In this document: in pieces, positions 3,201-28,048 of the stretch | Numbering within the stretch: position 1 is the first letter of the stretch | Layout of the letters: every line of letters starts with the position of its first letter | Source of the DNA: a virus | Length of the DNA: 35,953 bases | Virus record (IMG/VR): IMGVR_UViG_3300025594_000027 | Span: 1 to 35,953 of that record | Reading direction: 5' to 3' (one strand) | Position numbers and translations under genes: made by a program | Notes under the pieces: generated by a model | Database searches by the model: none | Seen by the model: only the letters and a program-made list of their open reading frames with translations | What the model was told of the DNA's origin: nothing

Positions 3201-3754
3201 TGGATGCTAATGGTTTCGATGTTATTGTTAGGGAAACTAATAGGAACTGGATGAAAGCTACTATGGATTGGGATGTGTTCGGGGAGTATGAAGGTGCAAG
3301 ACAGAGAGCAGAGGTTGCCCTTAAGGATAAGCTTTCTAAGATGGCACCGAATGCACAGGTGTCTCTTGAAGTTAATGAAGAGTTCCAGATGATGGGATAC
3401 TTGACGGAAACTAAGAGAACTCAGGAGGCCTTTGACTTCCCACAGAACCTTGCTTACATGTTAGCAGAAGCTACAGACCCCGGCAGCGGTAGTAAGATTG
3501 AAGACATCAACCAGAAAGCCGCAGAGATGGCTATGGTTATAAAGAAGAAGATGGCTACTGATGTTGGCTTTACATTCGGATCAAAGACAGCAACACCTAA
3601 ACAGGTTCAGCACTTTAACAAGCTGTTGGAACAGTACTTAGATACAAGGCAGTTGCTTGGCAAGATCAAGAGAGATGCTAAGAAGGGTCAAGATAGGATA
3701 CGAAGTTTTATAAAGAAGTACAAGGGTGAGGTGTACCAATACTTCGCTCACTAA
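284..3754 (+). CDS. Second single-subunit (T7/N4-superfamily) RNA polymerase, candidate virion RNA polymerase
   Basis: The protein has 1156 residues; the start ATG at 284 follows GGAGAAAAGA. Residues 1-130 are low-complexity and acidic. The central and C-terminal parts carry the motifs of single-subunit RNA polymerases in the right order: QGTGR (491-495) where T7 has DWRGR; motif A IDGKTNG with D662; motif B K744-YTTMTFG-Y752-G753, very close to T7 KRSVMTLAYG; motif C IYDAF with D969, where T7 has HDS. The two metal-binding aspartates, the motif B lysine and the YG pair are therefore kept. It is longer than T7 RNAP (883 aa), close to the size of the N4 mini-virion polymerase domain, and clearly distinct from the other polymerase at 4790-6874. 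It is the last gene of the plus-strand late block, next to a virion gene, so packaging in the particle is a reasonable inference. Polymerase assignment is firm from motifs; promoter type and packaging are not shown by sequence. Confidence 0.82.
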   Translation: MAKVNITSSTVSSGGVSTRGQSLDGLIEGSQMGLFDTPVEEKDQMMPVGTPASTLEVTADAPQAIEGAPVSDPVADQQAIEAGLLGQLDEEQKILLNKEEVGRQDRLYGDISNRLFQESGPWDTTQATEGEEQPDQGFRIRGRAVVNAVRDGGYKFGMEKQTMEGNRVQGDKGFSVLTDVIANDHKAFDASIPEWGTGYNPDYIAVATAVAEDTMLNKMEGVDTVENAATRMFSDTGEQTQMGALEKPFVKSSMNKELGRNINREWKLLTGGPESVTDISDEQATVLGDAFLEMYYNVNKGAPGAELMRRVSPTGKTGEVQFHLTPLGITQLAAGKKLRKSIFFRPPVEPYKTPPLPKGQGKSPISRFFIKAVKNIRGDRTIKEAMFNLSQIPHAVVPARLKLITSIILPTLAAAQTPGQELTPQQVVYANILGFGPKKMAAFRAKEAAATVDKPYSADQAMGELRNSIAQYYQALAKDRKGVNYLTWAMQGTGRIFVEQTGLDPTSSKLVRFALANPAYVTVKPNSRQEVNLRQMYAMHLVNDADMMLPVERDKALALATPQLRKWGQRLQEVLDATMSNAQSDSIHQAVQDKTGLRDPAFPQFNELALDPDRDAELLSAIDKAGDDGLLYMDGLMDFAKYYQQTLVGKKPHVTQFNAYIDGKTNGLAAMGMMLGDFALAFLTGVLRVGNKNLLDVGDIRDKLRETLLGNINTVGLDYDVYSEAPASLTAVASRLFSEKDLNKYTTMTFGYGRALQSIKGTINEFAGMIYQEALDAEAIEDATKRAAALKERNLVGFKDAYEALMRQESDPSKIGTVLLEPYVSGLKQVVSEDSIRARAAMKAVAYLSALSDLPLTIVGPAGMDLEMGGFVTRPNEPIPYSMTNKEGVRRQVKAQSYSPERRTAASTQVVEGPSGPENRTGMQAANTSVVTPPQSTDAAVVAITYTGFSMASLNNSSNGNPYAFPIYDAFKMDANGFDVIVRETNRNWMKATMDWDVFGEYEGARQRAEVALKDKLSKMAPNAQVSLEVNEEFQMMGYLTETKRTQEAFDFPQNLAYMLAEATDPGSGSKIEDINQKAAEMAMVIKKKMATDVGFTFGSKTATPKQVQHFNKLLEQYLDTRQLLGKIKRDAKKGQDRIRSFIKKYKGEVYQYFAH

Positions 3755-6889: not shown

Positions 6890-8539
6890 TTACATGATGT
6901 CGAACCCCGCTACTCCTGCTGATAAGCGAGTTGTCTTGGGGTCGTAGACTGCGGTACCTGCATCACCAGTGTTACCTGTGAAGCGTGACTTAAGTACCCT
7001 GAGTTTAATTGTGTTACGTTCGTAGTCCTCTTCAGCCACTAGGTTTCTAGCGAATGCAATGATGTCAAAGCTAATCTGCTTGATACTACCAGAGCCTTTG
7101 ATGTCATCAATTGATGGTAGCAATCCCTCCTCGAAGGACTTACCCTGAGACTTACGGAGGTGGCTGATCAAACCTAACCACACGTTGTGTTGTTTAACTA
7201 GCTTGAGTAAGTCAGACATCAACTTGTCAATAGCCTCATTGCCAGACAGACCATCAGTCCCTTCTGACACAGCAATGGTGATGTGGTCTAGCACAAGGTA
7301 CTTACAACCCATCAATGCCATGTACTCAATCTTATCTACAAGAGAGGCATCCGATACAGAGCCTTGGTGATCTAGTAGTACAAGACGTTCATCTTTGAAC
7401 ACTGCATCAAACCCTTGTCTCATCTCCCCCTCTGTCAATGGGGTTGTACCAGTTAGTGGTCGCTCCAATGACATACCAATGAACTTCTCAGCAGTCTCTC
7501 CAACAGATTCCTCTAAAGAGATCAAGCCAATCTTATCATCAGTGTTCTTAAGTAAGTCTAATACAATCTCTTTGATCACAGTAGACTTACCTGAGCCAGT
7601 ACCGCTGGTGAACAATGTGATCTCACCGTGACGCATACCATCAAGCTTCTCTGTCAAACCAGACAGGCACTCAGGGTACGGTACACTGACTACACTCTTG
7701 CGCTCCATGAACCTTTCCCAAACCTTCTCACCTGCTAGGATACCAGCTGGAGACCAAGGTTGTGCACCCCACATAGCCTCTAGGATAGCACCAGATCCAT
7801 GTTCTCTCAGCTCATCACATGGGTCTTTCTCTCGTAGCTTAGCGATACGAACCTTACCCATGCCAATCATACGGGCAGCTTGAGCAGCAGCTTCTTGACC
7901 GGGATCATCCATATCAAACATCAACACTACAGTTTGGAACTGACGCACCCACTCACGGTTCTTAAGGATAGATTGGATTGACTGAACACCATTGGGCAAT
8001 GAGACTACACTGTAGAACTTCTTATACTTATCAAAGTTAGCTTGGGCTACAGCCATTGCATCCAGCTCACCCTCCGTAATAACTAGGGTCTTACCTGAAC
8101 CTGCCATTGATTGTCCAAACAACTCAACATCTTTGAAGTCACCCATAGTACTGAAGGCTTTGGGTAACTTACGTACCTTGTAGGCCACTGTCATACCCTT
8201 CTTAGTGAACGGGTAGTAGTGGGCTTCAGGTCTACCATCAGTGTCTACTGCCATCTTTACATTGAAGTGATCAACTACTTCTTTACTGATACCCCTCGAT
8301 GATAGTGGATATGATCGGTATGTTGCTACGTCTTCGATTGTTTCTTGTTGGTAAGTCATCTCTTGGATGTCCTCAATATAATTAGTTTCTGTACTCTTAA
8401 AGTTAGTACAACAGCTGAAGCAGTATGCAGAGCCATCAGCTCGTACAGACTTAGCATCAGATGAACCACACTTGTCACAAGGTAAGTGCTTAGCGGTTAG
8501 GTCAGACGATTCGTATTGTCTAGTCATTTCTATTTCCAT
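6890..8539 (-). CDS. T7 gp4-like primase-helicase
   Basis: Unwinds DNA at the fork and makes primers. The 549-residue protein (T7 gp4 has 566) has an N-terminal zinc finger C21-x2-C24...C40-x2-C43, a TOPRIM primase core with VITEGELDAMAV (E156) and the acidic MFDMDDPGQ, and a C-terminal DnaB/RecA-type helicase with Walker A GTGSGKST (K318) and a Walker B-like region YLVLDHITI. The start at 8539 overlaps the end of a 45-aa gene; an internal ATG at 8527 (MTRQYESS) is an alternative. It works with the T7-like DNA polymerase and the SSB encoded upstream in the same block. Confidence 0.95.
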   Translation of the reverse strand: MEIEMTRQYESSDLTAKHLPCDKCGSSDAKSVRADGSAYCFSCCTNFKSTETNYIEDIQEMTYQQETIEDVATYRSYPLSSRGISKEVVDHFNVKMAVDTDGRPEAHYYPFTKKGMTVAYKVRKLPKAFSTMGDFKDVELFGQSMAGSGKTLVITEGELDAMAVAQANFDKYKKFYSVVSLPNGVQSIQSILKNREWVRQFQTVVLMFDMDDPGQEAAAQAARMIGMGKVRIAKLREKDPCDELREHGSGAILEAMWGAQPWSPAGILAGEKVWERFMERKSVVSVPYPECLSGLTEKLDGMRHGEITLFTSGTGSGKSTVIKEIVLDLLKNTDDKIGLISLEESVGETAEKFIGMSLERPLTGTTPLTEGEMRQGFDAVFKDERLVLLDHQGSVSDASLVDKIEYMALMGCKYLVLDHITIAVSEGTDGLSGNEAIDKLMSDLLKLVKQHNVWLGLISHLRKSQGKSFEEGLLPSIDDIKGSGSIKQISFDIIAFARNLVAEEDYERNTIKLRVLKSRFTGNTGDAGTAVYDPKTTRLSAGVAGFDIM

Positions 8540-8667
8540 TTCTTCTCATAGAGTTCTTCTTTAGATACCCGTTTCTTCCTACGCTTATCACTCTTAGCAA
8601 TCCTTAGAGCTTTAGCATCTGACTTAACAGGTGTAGGTTCTTCAACAATATCTTTACTATCCTTCAT
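8530..8667 (-). CDS. Small basic protein, 45 aa
   Basis: The short frame MKDSKDIVEE...EKKWK ends in TAG inside the first codons of the primase-helicase gene (10-base overlap), typical of translational coupling. AGGAT precedes the ATG at 8667. The C-terminal half is strongly basic (KSDKRRKKRVSKEE), which suggests nucleic-acid binding. No family recognised. It is the first gene after hairpin element copy 1, only 16 bases downstream of the hairpin. Confidence 0.6.
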   Translation of the reverse strand: MKDSKDIVEEPTPVKSDAKALRIAKSDKRRKKRVSKEELYEKKWK

Positions 8668-8677
8668 AACATTATCC

Positions 8678-8706
8678 TATAAAGAGACACACGAAGTGTG
8701 GCTCAA
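8678..8706 (-). promoter_or_regulatory. Hairpin element copy 1 (candidate promoter)
   Basis: On the plus strand GAG-a-CACAC [GAA] GTGTG-g-CTC folds at 8684-8704 with a 3-nt loop. The 29 bases 8678-8706 are identical to copy 2 at 16954-16982. It lies just after the stop of the MazG-like gene and 16 bases before the 45-aa/primase-helicase/RNAP genes, all read leftward. See the findings for the N4-like promoter hypothesis; a processing or termination signal is the alternative. Confidence 0.6.
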
Positions 8707-16280: not shown

Positions 16281-16522
16281 ACTGTTGGCCCTACTAGTAG
16301 TTCTCTGAGTTGTTCATAGCCACCTATCTTGGTGACCTCGGTGTTGCTCACTGTGATTATCTGAGGCACTGTTGTAGCATCGGGGAAGATACTCTTGAAG
16401 TCTGAGAGAGGGAAGTCCTCATCTAATACCATGTATATGTAATCTTTGTTTAATGTCTCAAGAAGCTCTATAGCTAACGTACAGTAACCACAGTCTTTCT
16501 TACCGTATACTTTGAATAACAT
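16277..16522 (-). CDS. Glutaredoxin
   Basis: 81 residues, thioredoxin fold. The active-site motif CGYC lies at the N-terminus (GKKDCGYCTLAIELLETLN) and the substrate-binding TTVPQIITV with cis-Pro follows, then GGYEQLREL. Likely reduces the phage class II RNR or host disulphides. The start overlaps the upstream gene stop as TAATG. Confidence 0.93.
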   Translation of the reverse strand: MLFKVYGKKDCGYCTLAIELLETLNKDYIYMVLDEDFPLSDFKSIFPDATTVPQIITVSNTEVTKIGGYEQLRELLVGPTV

Positions 16523-16929
16523 TATGATTTACCACCTATCAGTAGTTTAAGTTTAGCATCGAGTTCTGCATCAGACATATCTTCTGCTTTAACCTCAATG
16601 TTTGTTTGTTCAATCCTGCCTAACTTGGGTGTCTCAAACTCTGCGAGTGCTTTAGCAATGTCAACTGCTTGATCAGTATCTCCATTAGCTATTGCTTTAA
16701 CCATAGATAACCGCATTACATCCAGAGCTGTCAGGTTGTTAACTGCCATTAACTGGTCAGCGTCCATCTTAAGCTCTGCTGCTGTCAATGAGAGCCTCTC
16801 TCGTGCCTCCCTGTTAAGCTTACGGGAAGCTGCTGATGCTAGCTGTGCTTCTTTAGCATTCTCTGGTGTGAACCTTGGTGCTAGGTTAGCTAAACTGTTT
16901 GGATGTTGTTTAATCTTTTTGATTGTCAT
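16522..16929 (-). CDS. Candidate small terminase subunit, 135 aa
   Basis: The ATG at 16929 (MTIKKIKQHPNSLANLAP) has a perfect GGAGGT; the longer frame to 17019 would run through the hairpin element. The sequence starts with an HPNSLANLxP...FTPENAKEA segment, continues with a helical region (AASRKLNREARERLS) and ends MSDAELDAKLKLL. Such an arrangement is familiar from phage DNA-packaging small subunits, which bind the packaging site and guide TerL. No other small-terminase candidate is in the window, but the gene is far from terL and on the other strand. A general DNA-binding role is the alternative. Confidence 0.5.
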   Translation of the reverse strand: MTIKKIKQHPNSLANLAPRFTPENAKEAQLASAASRKLNREARERLSLTAAELKMDADQLMAVNNLTALDVMRLSMVKAIANGDTDQAVDIAKALAEFETPKLGRIEQTNIEVKAEDMSDAELDAKLKLLIGGKS

Positions 16930-16953
16930 GTTACCTCCTATGTTGCTTATTCT

Positions 16954-16982
16954 TATAAAGAGACACACGAAGTGTGGCTCAA
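16954..16982 (-). promoter_or_regulatory. Hairpin element copy 2 (candidate promoter)
   Basis: Same 29 bases as copy 1. The hairpin is 16960-16980, loop GAA on the plus strand. It stands between a leftward terminator (17092-17131) and the first gene of the next unit (ATG 16929), exactly where a promoter is expected; the preceding gene ends about 200 bases away, so it is not simply a gene-end terminator. Confidence 0.65.
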
Positions 16983-16991
16983 CTAAAGATG

Positions 16992-17010
16992 TCCTATAGG
17001 GACTAGCGAG
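16992..17010 (+). promoter_or_regulatory. CTATAGGGACT site, copy 1
   Basis: TCCTATAGGGACTAGCGAG is repeated with one change (R at G/A) on the minus strand at 23498-23516; a shorter relative is at 21944-21958. It contains CTATAGGGA, the initiation core of T7-type promoters, and the palindrome CCTATAGG, so direction is unclear. Candidate phage promoter or operator. Confidence 0.4.
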
Positions 17011-17091
17011 ATTGCCCACGAGATGCCTGTTGCGTGTTGTCGGTTACGTAAAAAGGGGCCAACGGAACGACTGTGAGCTATGTCGGTTACT

Positions 17092-17131
17092 TAAAAAACC
17101 TGAGGCACACCCAGCGTGAGCTGAGTGTACC
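17092..17131 (-). terminator. Leftward terminator
   Basis: Read on the minus strand, a 12-bp stem (GGTACACTCAGC / GCTGGGTGTGCC, with G-U pairs) closes a TCAC loop and is followed by TCAGG and six Ts. It ends the small-gene string that finishes at 17165 and separates it from the unit starting at 16929. Confidence 0.75.
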
Positions 17132-17141
17132 CCTATGATTC

Positions 17142-18562: not shown

Positions 18563-18790
18563 TTATCCTGCGAAGTTCCACACTTGTTTAGCTGGACGGT
18601 TGTGCTCAAGAGCGATAGAGGTGCGTCCAAGGTGTAGCTGAGTGAATGTAGACTGACGTTGCAGTCCGTAACCACGAGACTTCTTCTTACGTAAAGCAAT
18701 GAAACCTGAGAAGCCTAGGGCAGTGAATCGGATACGACCGTTGGACTTCTTGGATACACGGAATGAGAACACTCTGTTTACTTTAAACAT
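18563..18790 (-). CDS. Hypothetical basic protein, 75 aa
   Basis: Frame MFKVNRVFSFRVSKKSNGRIRF...NRPAKQVWNFAG, rich in Arg and Lys, with GGAG 7 bases before the ATG. Likely binds nucleic acid by charge alone. No family recognised. Confidence 0.7.
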   Translation of the reverse strand: MFKVNRVFSFRVSKKSNGRIRFTALGFSGFIALRKKKSRGYGLQRQSTFTQLHLGRTSIALEHNRPAKQVWNFAG

Positions 18791-22057: not shown

Positions 22058-22567
22058 CTAGAAGAGGTCACCGGATGTTACAGAGTCCGATGCCACTGGT
22101 GAAGCTGCTGGTGTTTCTGACTCGATAGCTACGAAGTCATCAGATGAACCACCTGCGTATTCGATCAGGTTAGTGATCTGTACAGCTGTGAGTGAGCAAC
22201 CAGTGCCCTTGCGACCAGCAACATCGTAGGCGTATTGGTACACCTTGACGTTACCGATAGAGCCATTACCAATCATCACACCCTCTGGAAGAGGCTGGAG
22301 ATCAGCTGTAACAACCTTAGGCTTACCGTTGTCCTCACCGTTAGCCTTACGAGCTTTACGCTTGAGACCTACTGAGAACATACCGTCCTTCTCTTTGACA
22401 TTGAGGAAGTTAGCAGTCCATTCTTTAGCTACATCCTTGCTGTCCGTGGCAATCTGTAGCTCGTACTGCTCAGTGCCGAAGGGAGTTACTGGTTTATCTA
22501 AACGTGCCCAGTTAAGCTGAGCGTTACGGATGATGTAGTTACGTGGAGCTTCAATGATAGCAGTCAT
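22058..22567 (-). CDS. Single-stranded DNA-binding protein (gp2.5-like role)
   Basis: 169 residues. The middle has beta segments typical of an OB fold (YELQIATDSKDVAKEW, FSVGLKRKARKANGEDNGKPKVV, IGNGSIGNVKVYQYAYD). The tail is disordered and ends SDSVTSGDLF: an acidic residue followed by a terminal Phe, as in T7 gp2.5, where this tail contacts polymerase and helicase. AAGGTT precedes the ATG. It coats single strands at the fork and helps annealing. Family assignment rests on size, position and tail rather than a strong motif. Confidence 0.8.
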   Translation of the reverse strand: MTAIIEAPRNYIIRNAQLNWARLDKPVTPFGTEQYELQIATDSKDVAKEWTANFLNVKEKDGMFSVGLKRKARKANGEDNGKPKVVTADLQPLPEGVMIGNGSIGNVKVYQYAYDVAGRKGTGCSLTAVQITNLIEYAGGSSDDFVAIESETPAASPVASDSVTSGDLF

Positions 22568-22629
22568 AATGTTTAACCTTATGTTAAATTAAGAGATTAG
22601 ATGATACAGGATTGTACCTATCTACAAAA

Positions 22630-22650
22630 GAGACACACGCAGTGTGGCTC
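22630..22650 (-). promoter_or_regulatory. Hairpin element copy 3 (candidate promoter)
   Basis: GAG-a-CACAC [GCA] GTGTG-g-CTC on the plus strand: same stem as copies 1 and 2, loop changed at its centre. It is 62 bases ahead of the SSB start and 8 bases after the stop of the 53-aa gene. Flank ATCTACAAAAGAG resembles that of copy 4 (ATCTACCAAAGAG). Confidence 0.6.
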
Positions 22651-22882: not shown

Positions 22883-23140
22883 TTAGCTTTTCAGCCAACG
22901 GTGTGACACTAACGACAGGCGGTGACCCTTGAGTGTTACCAAGGTGAGCTTACCGCAAGGTAAGATGGACACTGCCGCCTTGTAAGGCATAACAGTGAGC
23001 TTCTTACGTGAAACCACTAACTTCTTGTTGTGGCTAGGGTTAATGATGGTAACCATAGCATTGGCTCCACCAGTTGATTTAACTGCCATGAAAGCAGTCC
23101 CAGCATAAGACACGTATGTGCCTAGTTTTAAAGCAGCCAT
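22883..23140 (-). CDS. Small basic protein, 85 aa, first early gene
   Basis: Frame MAALKLGTYVSYAGTAFMAVKSTGG...VSHRWLKS, beta-rich and basic (NKKLVVSRKKLTVMPYKAAV). A perfect GGAGG lies 7 bases before the ATG at 23140. It is the first leftward gene, downstream of the hairpin array. An SH3-like small fold is possible from the VSYAGTAFMAV / VTIINP / LVVSRKKLTV pattern. No family recognised. Confidence 0.7.
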   Translation of the reverse strand: MAALKLGTYVSYAGTAFMAVKSTGGANAMVTIINPSHNKKLVVSRKKLTVMPYKAAVSILPCGKLTLVTLKGHRLSLVSHRWLKS

Positions 23141-23160: not shown

Positions 23161-23397
23161 AGTGCTGTCGGGATTGACACCACTGATTAAAGTAAGCATG
23201 GGCATTACACCCATGGCCCCGGTGTTAACCGGCAGGACTTCGTACTTACAGGGGAAGCTAACTCCCCGACTTGGCTCAATGGCCAAGGTTTATATGCAAC
23301 CGAGCTTATCCGGTTACCCAGTGGTCAGCTGGTGGTGTTCGGATGTAGCTGACTAGGCTACAAACAATCTACCAAAGAGACACACAAAGTGTGGCTC
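23161..23397 (-). ncRNA. Array of nine consecutive hairpins (candidate structured leader RNA)
   Basis: Consecutive local inverted repeats: 23161-23184 (AGTG-c-TGTC/GACA-c-CACT), 23197-23215 (CATGGG), 23219-23232 (CCGGT), 23251-23267 (GGGGA), 23270-23287 (CTTGGC), 23298-23315 (AACCG), 23318-23332 (CCAG, weakest), 23344-23362 (TGTAGC), 23377-23397 (hairpin element copy 4). Stems are 4-9 bp, loops 3-8 nt, each of different sequence. Leftward transcription starting near copy 4 would place the whole row in the leader of the 85-aa gene. No tRNA pattern fits. Strand and transcription are inferred. Confidence 0.5.
23377..23397 (-). promoter_or_regulatory. Hairpin element copy 4 (candidate promoter)
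   Basis: GAG-a-CACAC [AAA] GTGTG-g-CTC on the plus strand; same stem, loop AAA. It is the most upstream copy, 236 bases before the first early gene, and so the best candidate for the first leftward transcript. Confidence 0.55.
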
Positions 23398-23497: not shown

Positions 23498-23539
23498 CTC
23501 GTTAGTCCCTATAGGAGAATGCACGATTACCCTATAGGA
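23498..23539 (-). promoter_or_regulatory. Two tandem CTATAGGG sites
   Basis: Read on the minus strand: TCCTATAGGGTAATCG (23524-23539) and TCCTATAGGGACTAACGAG (23498-23516), 23 bases apart start to start. The second equals the 16992-17010 site except for one base. The CTATAGGGA core is like the start region of T7-type promoters, but the sequence upstream of the core is not conserved between sites. Confidence 0.45.
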
Positions 23540-23876
23540 TTACCCTAGTGTGTGCCTAGAATCCCTCACAGGACTCTCTACGTAGCTCCATGCGCTGATA
23601 AAGAGGCGATACTTGTATCGACTATCAGAGCATCCCCAGCGCAAGCGACTGCCCCTCGGAACCCTCACAGAGCACCGAGAGAGAACTTGGGGGGTACCCA
23701 AAGTAACCAAGGGTACCTCAATACCCCTGACTTATAGACACACGCTCTGGGGCTAAGTCTTGCAATTGGTTGCACTCATAAGTAGGGGGGGTACCCAAAA
23801 GCTCTCACAGAACCCTACAAACCCCCACAGCACCACAAATATACCATGTAGCGCCCAGTCACCGAGGACTATAGCA

Positions 23877-25529
23877 ATGGATAAGACAGAATTAATAAAG
23901 CTTGTGAAGGAGAAGGAGAAGAGGAACCTACTAGAGGAGTACTCTCAGGACTTCACACGCTTCGCACAGGAACAGATAAGGATTGTGACTAAGGACTCTA
24001 GCAAGGGTTTTGTACCCTTCGAGTTAAACCAAGCACAGACCCTTATAACAGAACAATTAACAAAGCAGTTGGAAGAGACTGGTCGTGTTAGGGCTATCAT
24101 CCTTAAGGCAAGACAGCAGGGTATCTCTACGTACTGTGTAGGTAGGGTGTACTGGAAGTCATACTTCTCTCCTCATTCGAGGTCAGTTGTAATGGCACAT
24201 GATAGTGCTACTTCAGATGCTCTATTCAGTATGTCAAAGAACCTTATTAGGAATATGCCTAAAGAACTAGCACCCAAGGAGGAGCGTAGTAATGCCAAGG
24301 AAGTCATCATCAGCTCACCTTACTTCAAGGATAAAGAAGCTAAGGCTAGCTACCGTCTTTATACTGCTGGTGCACCTGAGGCTGGTCGAGGTACTACTCC
24401 AACAATCGCACACCTATCCGAGGTTGCCTTCTGGAACCACGATGAGAAGATACTTGCAGGTTTGTTCCAAGGTATCCCACAGACCGATGGTACCGAGGTA
24501 ATCCTAGAGTCTACCGCTAATGGTGCTCAAGGAGAGTTCTATAGATTATGGAAGGGAGCTGTTGCTGGGGAGAATGAATACTTACCTATCTTCCTCCCAT
24601 GGTTTCTTACGGATGAATACCGTAGACCACACCCGGAGGGGATGGAATTAACAGTAGAGGAAGAGAAGCTTGTCGAAAGGTTTGACCTAGACAATGACCA
24701 GCTCTACTGGAGAAGGCTGAAGATAGCTGAGGGGGGTGAACATAAGTTCCGACAGGAATACCCTACTACAGCTGAGGAAGCATTTCTAGTCTCAGGATCT
24801 AATGTCTTTGACATAGAGAAGCTGGAGCAGCTGGTACCAGAGACCCCGGAAAGCCACAGAGCGTGGGATGCTAACAGTAAGCAGTTTGAAGATAACCGTG
24901 AAGGCAAGCTACAGATCTTTAGCTACCCTAAGTGGGAAGACAACTATGTTATTGCTGCTGATGTGGCACTAGGTGTTGGTCAGGATTACTCCACTGCTGT
25001 TGTCTTAAACAAAGATTATAAAGTGATGGCATTGTACAGGGACAATAGGATAGACCCTAGTCTCTTCGGGGAACTACTGTTCTACCTAGGTCGCTATTAC
25101 AACAACTCACTCCTATGCCCAGAGTCTAACTCCATGGGTATTGCAACAATACAAAAGCTTGAATCAATGAACTATGTCAACCTCTATAAGCAGGTTAAGA
25201 AGGCTAATGTCAACCATGAGTCTTCTGCTCGTATAGGCTTCAGGACTACCTCAGCTTCTAAGCCAGCTATCATCGGTAACTTGAAGTCTCTCATAGAGAA
25301 CGAGGAGGTCAATGTACCTTCTAACATTATGATTCAGGAACTAAAAGATTACATCTCCACGGACACAGGGAAGACTGAAGCAGCAGCTGGCTGTAATGAT
25401 GACACGGTAATGGCATTAGCCATAGCCTGTGAAGTCTTACGTACCCACTGGGATAAGCTTCAGAGTAACAACGTACCGTGGTCAACCAGAGTCTCTCAGT
25501 ACAACGAGGATGAGACTGCATGGCTGTAA
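23877..25529 (+). CDS. terL: Terminase large subunit
   Basis: ATP-driven DNA packaging motor and nuclease; binds the portal. 550 residues from the ATG at 23877 (MDKTELIKL), with GAGG 10 bases before it; the frame is open upstream to 23760, but that part has no start site and looks non-coding. ATPase: Walker A-like K77-ARQQGIST, then acidic HLSE182 as Walker B region. Nuclease (RNase H fold): VIAADVALGVGQDYS with D362 and CNDDTVMAL with D508/D509. First gene of the late block; T7 gp19 has 586 residues. Confidence 0.95.
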   Translation: MDKTELIKLVKEKEKRNLLEEYSQDFTRFAQEQIRIVTKDSSKGFVPFELNQAQTLITEQLTKQLEETGRVRAIILKARQQGISTYCVGRVYWKSYFSPHSRSVVMAHDSATSDALFSMSKNLIRNMPKELAPKEERSNAKEVIISSPYFKDKEAKASYRLYTAGAPEAGRGTTPTIAHLSEVAFWNHDEKILAGLFQGIPQTDGTEVILESTANGAQGEFYRLWKGAVAGENEYLPIFLPWFLTDEYRRPHPEGMELTVEEEKLVERFDLDNDQLYWRRLKIAEGGEHKFRQEYPTTAEEAFLVSGSNVFDIEKLEQLVPETPESHRAWDANSKQFEDNREGKLQIFSYPKWEDNYVIAADVALGVGQDYSTAVVLNKDYKVMALYRDNRIDPSLFGELLFYLGRYYNNSLLCPESNSMGIATIQKLESMNYVNLYKQVKKANVNHESSARIGFRTTSASKPAIIGNLKSLIENEEVNVPSNIMIQELKDYISTDTGKTEAAAGCNDDTVMALAIACEVLRTHWDKLQSNNVPWSTRVSQYNEDETAWL

Positions 25530-25688: not shown

Positions 25689-25826
25689 ATGCGATTTAAT
25701 GAAGAAGCACCTAAGCAGAAGCAAGTGAAGAAAGAGGCTAGTAAGAAGCCTAGAGAGATGACCAAAGCTGGCTCGTACTCTAGTAAAGAGCTAGAGAAGT
25801 CCAAAACAATCCCTTGGAGGCAGTGA
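25689..25826 (+). CDS. Small basic protein upstream of portal, 45 aa
   Basis: Frame MRFNEEAPKQKQVKKEASKK...KTIPWRQ with GGAGGG 4-5 bases before the ATG and a TGATG overlap with the portal start. Highly charged, likely disordered, ending in PWRQ. Coupling to portal suggests a helper or minor head role, but the family is not recognised. Confidence 0.7.
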   Translation: MRFNEEAPKQKQVKKEASKKPREMTKAGSYSSKELEKSKTIPWRQ

Positions 25827-28048
25827 TGAGTCACGGATATAAAGAGAAAGTAACGGATGAACAGCTATCTAATCTAGTTGAACAGGGTATTGCTAACAGT
25901 GTAGGCGATTGGTTGAACTCCTCAGACCTCTCTAAAGAGCGTGAGAAGAGCACCTATGAATACGCTGGCCTACCCCTAGGTCACTTGAAGCCACAAGGTG
26001 TAAGCACCATTGTTGATACGTCTACAACTGAAACTGTTGAAGCGTACACAGCTGTCCTATGTGACCTATTCCTAAACAATGGTAAGCTTGCTAAGTTCAC
26101 CCCCTATGCAGCCTCCCCCGGTGCACACAAACAAGCCCATGATGCCTCATTGGTAACTAACTACTGCTTGTTTAAACAGAATAACGGATGGGAGTTGATC
26201 CAAACATGGATTAAGTCTTCCCTCCTTTGGAAGAATGGTATCATTCGATGGGATTATGTAGAGGATTACTACACAACCTTTGAAGAATACGAAGTAATAT
26301 CACAGGCTAAGCTCGATGAGCTGCTGTCTGATGAATCTGTAGAGATCGTAGGTGATCTTGAGTTTGAGAATGAGGTAGATGCTACAGGTGATGCTGAACT
26401 TGTCTACGTAAATGTACGCATTAAGCGCACCATAGACCGTTCTAAGGTACGATTAGAGAATATCCCCCCGGAGAACTTCCGTATTTCCCGTGATGCTACC
26501 TCTATTGACGATGCTAACTTCGTTGGTATCCAGACAGACATGACACGCAGTGAGATACGCAAGTATTGGCCCGACATTGCTGAGAATATCAGTGATGATG
26601 AGTGGGATGAGCTAGGTGGTATGGCATGGTCGGGTAATACCCGGTACAGTCAGGACGTTGCTGCCCGTAAACAGACAGTTGGTATGTCTTATTGGCAGGG
26701 TGCTAGTGATAGTATGCCCGTAGAAGCTAACCGTGAGCTGTCTGTAACCGAATGCTGGATGAATGTTGACCGTGATGGTGATGGTATTGCTGAACTTAAG
26801 CGATTCATTATGATTGGTGGCAAGGTATTCCATGAAGAAGACTGTGATCTTATTCAGGTAGCCTCATTGTCCCCTATAGACATCCCTTACGAGTTCTATG
26901 GTCTATCCATAGCTGACCTTACCCGTTCGTCTACTTTGGCTGCTACGGCTATTCTAAGGGGCTTCGTGGAGAACACGTACCTCACTAACTATAGTCCTAA
27001 GCTAGCTGATCCAAACGTGGTAGATTTCTCTGCATTGCAGAACATGAAGCCTAAGCAGATCATCCCCACTAACGGATCACCACAAGGTGCTGTTGCTGCC
27101 CTACCTCCTGAGACTATCTCGACTGGTACTGTGCCGTTACTGCAACACCTACAGATTATTAAAGAACAAGCGACAGGTATGTCTAAGGCTGCTCAAGGCC
27201 TTAACGATACACTGTATGTCTCTGGTAATAGTGAAGGAAAGATGGCTGCTGTGCAGTCTGCTTCCCAGAAACGTATCCAACACATCGCCCGTAGGTTTGC
27301 TGAGACAGGTCTTAAGCGTCTATGTGAGGGTGTGTACTCAGCTATCCGTAAGCAAACCAAGCAGATGAACGTCTGTGTTGGTGGCATGACAGAGGTTGTG
27401 GATTGTGCTAGCCTACCAGACCGTATGGAATGTGATGTCATCTTGGACATCGGTGAGAACAGTAATGCTAACCTGATCAACAAGCTAACAACAGTAGGTC
27501 AACAGATCTTACCTAGCTTGAACTCAGCTGGAGCTGGCAGTATCATTAAGCCAGAGTCACCTGCGGTACTTGCGACTAAGTTGTTAGAAGCAATGGGACT
27601 ATCTAGTAATGACTTCTTAGAAGACTATACTACTGACGAGTTTAAAGAGAACGCTGCTAAGGCAGTCCAATCACAAACTGATAATGCCCAGAAGACACAG
27701 GGGCTTCAGAACAGAAAGGCTGCGGCTGATGTTGATCTATCAGAAGCTAATGTTCGTTACACTGATGCACAGAGTGCTAACACTGTACAAGACAACGCTA
27801 AGCAAATGGCAGTAGCCATTGATAAGCACTACCAAGAGTGGGCTGATCTAACGATCAAAGCACAGAAGGAAGGTGCTGTTATCCCTGAGCACCCAACGTA
27901 TGCTCAGATACTAGCAATGGTCTCTGAGGCTATGGGTGGTGGGGCTGAGCAACCAATGGAAGAGCCTATGCCACAGGAACAAGCCCCACAAGGCCAGATG
28001 TCTGAACAAGACATGATGGCTATGATGGAAGGTCAATTACCAATCTAA
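25826..28048 (+). CDS. Portal protein (P22-like)
   Basis: 740 residues from the ATG at 25826, with GGAGG upstream. P22 portal has 725 residues and the P22-type family pattern is visible: STIVDTSTTETVEAYTAVLCDLFL, KFTPYAASPGAHKQAHDASLVTNY, then IKSSLLWKNGIIRWDYVEDY, PPENFRISRDATSID, MNVDRDGDGIAELKRFIM, and a Gln/Met-rich C-terminal tail (GAEQPMEEPMPQEQAPQGQM). Forms the dodecameric ring at the capsid vertex, docks TerL and starts head assembly with the scaffold. It is unlike the 535-aa T7 connector, which shows that the head module is not T7-derived. Confidence 0.93.
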   Translation: MSHGYKEKVTDEQLSNLVEQGIANSVGDWLNSSDLSKEREKSTYEYAGLPLGHLKPQGVSTIVDTSTTETVEAYTAVLCDLFLNNGKLAKFTPYAASPGAHKQAHDASLVTNYCLFKQNNGWELIQTWIKSSLLWKNGIIRWDYVEDYYTTFEEYEVISQAKLDELLSDESVEIVGDLEFENEVDATGDAELVYVNVRIKRTIDRSKVRLENIPPENFRISRDATSIDDANFVGIQTDMTRSEIRKYWPDIAENISDDEWDELGGMAWSGNTRYSQDVAARKQTVGMSYWQGASDSMPVEANRELSVTECWMNVDRDGDGIAELKRFIMIGGKVFHEEDCDLIQVASLSPIDIPYEFYGLSIADLTRSSTLAATAILRGFVENTYLTNYSPKLADPNVVDFSALQNMKPKQIIPTNGSPQGAVAALPPETISTGTVPLLQHLQIIKEQATGMSKAAQGLNDTLYVSGNSEGKMAAVQSASQKRIQHIARRFAETGLKRLCEGVYSAIRKQTKQMNVCVGGMTEVVDCASLPDRMECDVILDIGENSNANLINKLTTVGQQILPSLNSAGAGSIIKPESPAVLATKLLEAMGLSSNDFLEDYTTDEFKENAAKAVQSQTDNAQKTQGLQNRKAAADVDLSEANVRYTDAQSANTVQDNAKQMAVAIDKHYQEWADLTIKAQKEGAVIPEHPTYAQILAMVSEAMGGGAEQPMEEPMPQEQAPQGQMSEQDMMAMMEGQLPI

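Follow-up and report, generated by a model that had tools for sequence, protein, structure and literature searches.

Four copies of a hairpin-forming element in the window, by which we mean the whole 35,953-base IMG/VR virus record analyzed here, are probably template-strand hairpin promoters (a probability of roughly two in three, judged from sequence) for a stand-alone virion RNA polymerase (vRNAP), the 1156-aa protein P1 encoded by the same phage. The element and P1 would be a variant of the N4 virion-polymerase/hairpin-promoter system, lying outside the Schitoviridae by TerL and MCP families. To our knowledge, injected polymerases that read hairpin promoters have been described essentially only in N4 and the rest of its family. 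An earlier note on this DNA had proposed virion-initiated transcription; the polymerase half of that proposal is well supported, and the case for the promoter half is circumstantial, drawing on the C(GNA)G loop rule, a bias toward the early strand, covariation, and parallels in related clades.

The window comprises one leftward and one rightward block of genes. The leftward block (23140 to 3849) encodes an ssDNA-binding protein (SSB), DNA polymerase A, a 5′-3′ exonuclease, a B12-dependent ribonucleotide reductase (RNR), MazG, a primase-helicase, a 694-aa T7-like RNA polymerase (RNAP) designated P2 (4790..6874, minus strand), and ThyX, and is the early/replication operon. The rightward block opens with the terminase large subunit as the first late gene (23760..25529, plus strand) and runs through the portal (25814..28048, plus strand), scaffold, major head protein and others up to the right end; read circularly, it resumes at the left end and closes with P1 (284..3754, plus strand), the last gene of the late operon and convergent with P2. 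The two polymerase genes co-occur in this convergent arrangement in every related contig that carries P1. TerL belongs to phrog_2 here and to phrog_38 in N4, and MCP to phrog_1328 as against phrog_1357, whereas the portal family, phrog_1216, is shared. The hallmark combination of the Schitoviridae, a full-length vRNAP together with N4-family TerL and MCP, is absent from the window phage.

A pattern scan of the window bore out the claim that the element, GAGaCACACnnnGTGTGgCTC, is present in four copies, all in one orientation and all preceding a leftward gene. On the minus strand the 21-mers occupy 8684..8704 (copy 1), 16960..16980 (copy 2), 22630..22650 (copy 3), and 23377..23397 (copy 4); the coordinates 8678-8706 and 16954-16982 given earlier delimit a longer 29-nt stretch that is identical between copies 1 and 2. 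Direct reading likewise agrees with the distances of 16, 30, 62, and 236 bases reported from copies 1-4 to the leftward start codons, and with the reported order of terminator, copy 2, and gene. Copy 1 leads into a 45-aa ORF directly after it (8530..8667, with a counterpart in the relative G002), the primase-helicase (6890..8539), and P2. Copy 2 stands between, on one side, an intrinsic terminator (17102..17133; a 14-bp hairpin followed by AGGTTTTTTA, read from 17133 to 17102) and a class-A promoter-like site and, on the other, a gene for a 135-aa protein of no family (16522..16929). Copy 3 precedes the gene for the gp2.5-like SSB (22058..22567; phrog_112, 2.9e-20), and copy 4 lies in the divergent region at the head of the whole leftward operon, the first leftward gene after it encoding an 85-aa protein of no family (22883..23140); all these genes and the terminator are on the minus strand. 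Each copy has a conserved minus-strand tail: TTTATAGGA at 8675..8683, a candidate start region, TTTATAAGA at 16951..16959, TTTTGTAGA at 22621..22629, and TTTGGTAGA at 23368..23376. Past the stem, TTT and then, 7-9 nt on, (A/G)GA are conserved. Direction was assigned from this flank, GAGCCACACTNYGTGTGTCTC-TTTRNNRGA or similar, common to all four copies, because the palindrome alone is directionless. With at most one mismatch allowed, CACACNNNGTGTG matched the window nine times against 1.77 expected, a number reached in none of 100 shuffles; its four perfect matches are all the hairpin copies, and a reversed-pattern control for the 21-mer gave no match in the window.

An iteron-like repeat, (T)TTTTNNGTAACCGACAAARCGCA, is present in two copies at 17031-17099 on the minus strand, adjoining copy 2. 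Similar sites are found in G002, G005, G007, G008, G009, G011-G015, G017, G021, and G023, mostly as early-strand pairs spaced 33-43 bp apart, and are kept across clades whose P1 proteins are ~30% identical; they may mark an origin or be bound by a protein.

Some features of this placement count against a promoter. The previous stop codon lies only 5 bases before copy 1 and 8 bases before copy 3, and these copies could serve as gene-end hairpins; copy 2 lies just past the class-A promoter-like site, at a spacing constant in relatives, and would thus also sit in a 5′ leader. Both points favor a hairpin that acts at the RNA level between operon segments, whether in transcript processing, stability or attenuation, or by terminating weakly, as do an RNA hairpin energy of -7.2 kcal/mol and a consensus terminator scan that lists all four copies at its minimum stem. 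We regard such a role as unlikely. Just 3-4 T follow the stem, whereas the clear terminators of this phage have stems of 9-15 bp and TTTTT runs, and no leftward gene lies upstream of copy 4; on these grounds a plain terminator was rejected. In a terminator, moreover, there is no evident reason for a T-N-Y loop or for the conserved (A/G)GA that follows the stem by 7-9 nt.

As template-strand DNA hairpins, the elements have the 5-bp stem and 3-nt loop that would place them, as had been suggested, within the N4 range of 5-7 bp and 3 nt. The calculated energy of the DNA hairpin is -5.8 kcal/mol on the template (plus) strand versus -3.4 kcal/mol on the other. In N4, a C:G closing pair, a 5′ G, and a 3′ A in the template-strand loop are needed for extrusion, 5′-C(GNA)G-3′ forming a sheared G:A pair (PMC4496689). 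Copies 1-3 satisfy this rule, with plus-strand loops C(GAA)G, C(GAA)G, and C(GCA)G, while copy 4, C(AAA)G, breaks it, the loop being AAA or ACA in this copy and in the majority of its orthologues. Among relatives the middle base varies freely, and GTA, ATA, and ACA also occur.

This regularity was turned into a scan rule, C[TNC]G on the transcript strand with a stem of at least 5 bp, which was framed after inspection of the window and for which the relatives G003, G005, and G016 formed an untouched test set. In the first 12 kb of N4 the rule returned exactly three sites, at 95, 564, and 4553, preceding gene 1, gene 2, and genes 15/16, respectively, and none on the other strand; from their positions and the P2 sequence we take these to be the N4 promoters P1, P2, and P3. 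In the early zone of nine P1-bearing genomes there were 14 matches on the early strand and none on the late strand, with 1.23 expected. These 14 stem from four groups (the window clade, G003, G005, and G016) in which tandem copies are not independent events, and two of them fall within the coding sequence of a large gene (RNR in the window, P2 in G003). G003 carries four tandem copies of GTTGC[TTC]GCAAC, a 13-mer identical to the N4 P1 promoter hairpin at position 95, and G005 has two hairpin copies that differ by one compensated pair. The layout of 3 bp, a Y.Y mismatch, 5 bp, and a TNC loop is found again in G003 with an unrelated stem sequence, and with 2 bp in G016. The four G003 copies of the 13-mer belong to four tandem repeats, TTGTGTTGCTTCGCAACCCAACCTGACGTTT, near the head of the early region (57640-57860 of the oriented contig), which are seen also in L112 (11015-11193).

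The negative controls were imperfect, with one site in the terminal repeat of T7, three on the other strand in Buco, and one inside a gene in CRP-125. Transcript-strand TNC triloops are missing from noncoding DNA in three of the four control phages lacking a vRNAP, which also argues against the RNA-level role. The scan did not find strict C(GNA)G hairpins in the P1-bearing clades G004, G007, G015, and CRP-7. It likewise gives no noncoding early-strand site in the Schitoviridae phage Axy24, so that a missing hairpin in distant P1 clades is weak evidence, which weakens the promoter idea and does no more. The notion that every P1-bearing clade carries multi-copy hairpins was dropped, generic hairpin and 10-mer surveys having given mainly class-A promoters and iterons. 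A gap in the early operon of the G007 clade contains a row of three to four hairpins that differ from one another, for example AGAGATCT-TTT-AGATCTCT, AGGATTC..GAATCCT, and GTGACCC..GGGTCAC (oriented contigs: G007 18677-18740, G008 49732-49795, G012 1033-1095, G013 3348-3420), and these rows could be the equivalent elements of that clade. In G013, repeats at ~1-540 and 56880-57406 of the oriented contig are common to both contig ends and the early region.

Relatives of the element show that its stem is maintained through sequence change. An exact pattern scan of IMG/VR returned 17 stretches, of which those with readable context keep the flanks of the window clade at the same positions, with the exception of L008, which lacks the TTT tail. 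Copy 1 of G002, CACGC-TAT-GCGTG, has a compensatory A-T to G-C change relative to copy 1 of the window, and in L006 the C.T mismatch is swapped to T.C. Across 12 variants (including G003, G005, G016, and G004), 93.8% of cells are paired versus 70.6% after shuffling, a percentage that leans towards structure in that the set was picked by hairpin scans; double changes number 19, with no one-sided change and no G-U, and the window clade on its own contributes one compensatory pair. Although the sample is small, the missing G-U intermediates are more in keeping with a DNA than with an RNA hairpin, and their count of 0 among 90 paired cells speaks against the RNA-level explanation. Phages keeping the hairpins without the polymerase, which had been named as evidence that would tell against virion-initiated transcription, were not seen, yet many hairpin-bearing contigs are fragments short of the polymerase genes.

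Conservation of this kind also bears on the possibility that the elements are binding sites of a phage or host regulator, or replication or recombination sites, palindromic by chance. Operators often take the form of palindromic sites repeated ahead of operons, and conserved iteron-like TAACCGACA repeats adjoin copy 2; there is little reason, however, for a symmetric operator to retain a mismatch, a 3-nt GNA loop, and a single orientation as its stem sequence changes, and we consider this explanation quite improbable. Covarying arms are equally unnecessary to a duplex promoter of P2, the reading in which the elements are a class-A variant and to which we assign a very slim chance. Copy 1 reads GTCTCTTTATAGGATA, resembling a T7-type TATAGG start, but TATAGG is missing in the other copies (TTTGGTAGA, TTTTGTAGA), and there is a separate and better T7-like motif, class A (CGYTAGTCCCTATAGGA), in both directions: leftward as CGCTAGTCCCTATAGGACATCT at 16987..17008 (minus strand), upstream of copy 2, and rightward towards the late genes as CGTTAGTCCCTATAGGAGAATG at 23500..23521 (plus strand), with a weaker repeat at 23530-23538. 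Several relatives, belonging to other clades, have class-A motifs of their own. We infer that P2 uses class A and that P1 uses the hairpins.

That P1, the second polymerase of the earlier note, is a single-subunit RNAP is a point on which family profile, fold, and catalytic motifs agree. The RNAP family phrog_414 is matched by 16 of 22 members of the P1 family (best 3.7e-7) and by N4 mini-vRNAP (5e-6); P1 alone has no family match, phrog_414 being seen only via family members, and phrog_2206 (vRNAP) is absent from the families matched at E 0.1 by the P1 family. An AlphaFold model of P1 (pLDDT 73, pTM 0.71) matches T7 RNAP (5e-15) and N4 mini-vRNAP (8e-15) in a structure search, the highest query TM listed being 0.45, to N4 mini-vRNAP. 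By hhalign, the P1 profile matches Schitoviridae vRNAPs at 1.4e-5 over 515 columns and P2 at 0.002 over 57 columns, a sequence-profile comparison that suggests, with moderate strength, that P1 is nearer the N4 virion RNAP than the T7-like RNAP. Sequence-only searches of PDB and Pfam and a tblastn search against named phages gave no match with P1, nor did a guessed N4 peptide used as query, which carries no weight; the RNAP nature of P1 is visible only at the PHROG family, fold, and profile-profile levels. Its catalytic motifs are intact (R495, D662-G-K-T-N-G, K744...Y752-G753, and D969), and R495, D662-G-K-T, K744, Y752-G753, and D969 are invariant in the family and match R424, D559-G-x-T, K670, Y678-G679, and D951 of Schitoviridae vRNAPs, D969 and D951 having been paired by eye where the profile alignment stops before motif C. 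In the TX2GR/DX2GR block, GR (R495) is invariant; P1 has Q at the T/D position (QGTGR), which is variable among relatives. Any P1 counterpart of N4 W129, which serves -11 recognition, would fall outside the aligned part of the P1-vRNAP profile alignment.

N4 gp50 is, like P1, a cysteine-free single-subunit RNAP with R, D, K...Y-G, and D motifs, but its chain runs to 3500 aa, of which only the middle is catalytic, whereas P1 is 1156 aa alone; the 22 P1 homologues span 1116-1369 aa, none having the giant size of ~3400-3500 aa. Cysteines number zero in 21 of the 22 P1 family members and one in the remaining member, zero in N4 gp50, and 11-14 in P2. The absence of cysteine is a trait recorded for the vRNAP of N4-like Pseudomonas phages (PMC3715699). 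It is also a general mark of ejection proteins: the large late proteins adjoining P1 are likewise cysteine-free, and so is gp39 of the Zobellviridae phage CRP-4, which has no detectable likeness to P1 and was rejected as a homologue when it matched neither P1 nor N4 profiles. The lack of cysteine and a place in the late operon beside large cysteine-free proteins are indirect signs that P1 may be carried in the virion and ejected.

The sequence of events that we envisage is as follows. P1 would be ejected into the cell along with the incoming DNA, and negative supercoiling would extrude from the plus (template) strand a 9-position hairpin in which a C(GNA)G triloop caps 5 bp, with a purine-purine mismatch and a further 3 bp below. 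After binding this hairpin, P1 would initiate transcription toward the left, a few nucleotides beyond the stem and close to the conserved TTTRNN(A/G)GA. The early products would include SSB, the replication proteins, and P2, which may then use CGYTAGTCCCTATAGGA promoters for the rightward late genes.

Such a scheme resembles that of N4 in several respects. N4 promoters P1-P3 also have a 5-bp stem and a 3-nt template-strand loop, C(GNA)G, with a T-rich stretch after the hairpin, and are found on the early strand only. P3 (4553) precedes the RNAPII genes gp15/16, just as copy 1 precedes the primase-helicase and P2, although the second RNAP is a single chain here, with T7-like promoter motifs, and gp15/gp16 in N4. 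The N4 vRNAP is activated by SSB (PMC4496689), and here the SSB gene follows copy 3. The window element differs in its extra 3-bp lower stem with a mismatch and in base-specific features that argue against the promoter reading: the -8G of N4 is A in all copies; the -11 base, a purine in N4, is A, A, C, and A in copies 1-4; and at the N4 +1C position, eleven nt from the loop centre, the transcript strand has T. The nearest conserved purines lie 6-7 nt beyond the N4 +1 spacing, and a G start is missing 5 nt beyond the 5-bp stem. With neither -8G nor +1 spacing kept, the elements are not N4 promoters in detail.

Large cysteine-free virion proteins have been proposed as vRNAPs outside the Schitoviridae before, in Stenotrophomonas phage StenR_269 and the Zobellviridae (PMC10747016), a proposal based on their size, helices, and missing cysteines; these proteins resemble P1 in being large and cysteine-free. 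Among isolates, the 58-kb Roseobacter phage CRP-7 has a P2 RNAP that is 33-40% identical and, in the P1 position, a convergent 1235-aa cysteine-free protein with weak similarity to P1; it differs in lacking the CACAC or strict C(GNA)G hairpin and has its own class-A motif, TATAGTCCCYTATTAAAAGG. In CRP-7 (MK613349, 17859-29367), gp33-gp35 (1235, 1368, and 1223 aa) are consecutive, cysteine-free, and annotated as hypothetical, and are probably an ejection cassette with gp33 as the P1-like polymerase.

The chances are about even that these phages represent a widespread marine podovirus lineage outside the Schitoviridae that employs a stand-alone virion RNAP of 1100-1400 residues on template-strand hairpin promoters, followed by a one-chain T7-like RNAP with duplex promoters, a cascade for which the host RNA polymerase may be dispensable. 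If the promoter reading is true, a loop logic shared with N4 across differing stems in a second podovirus lineage would show which promoter features are essential, and a compact vRNAP one third the size of that of N4 would supply a natural enzyme of reduced size for single-stranded hairpin templates. It would also point to a way in which CRP-7-like marine podoviruses could begin transcription without the host polymerase.
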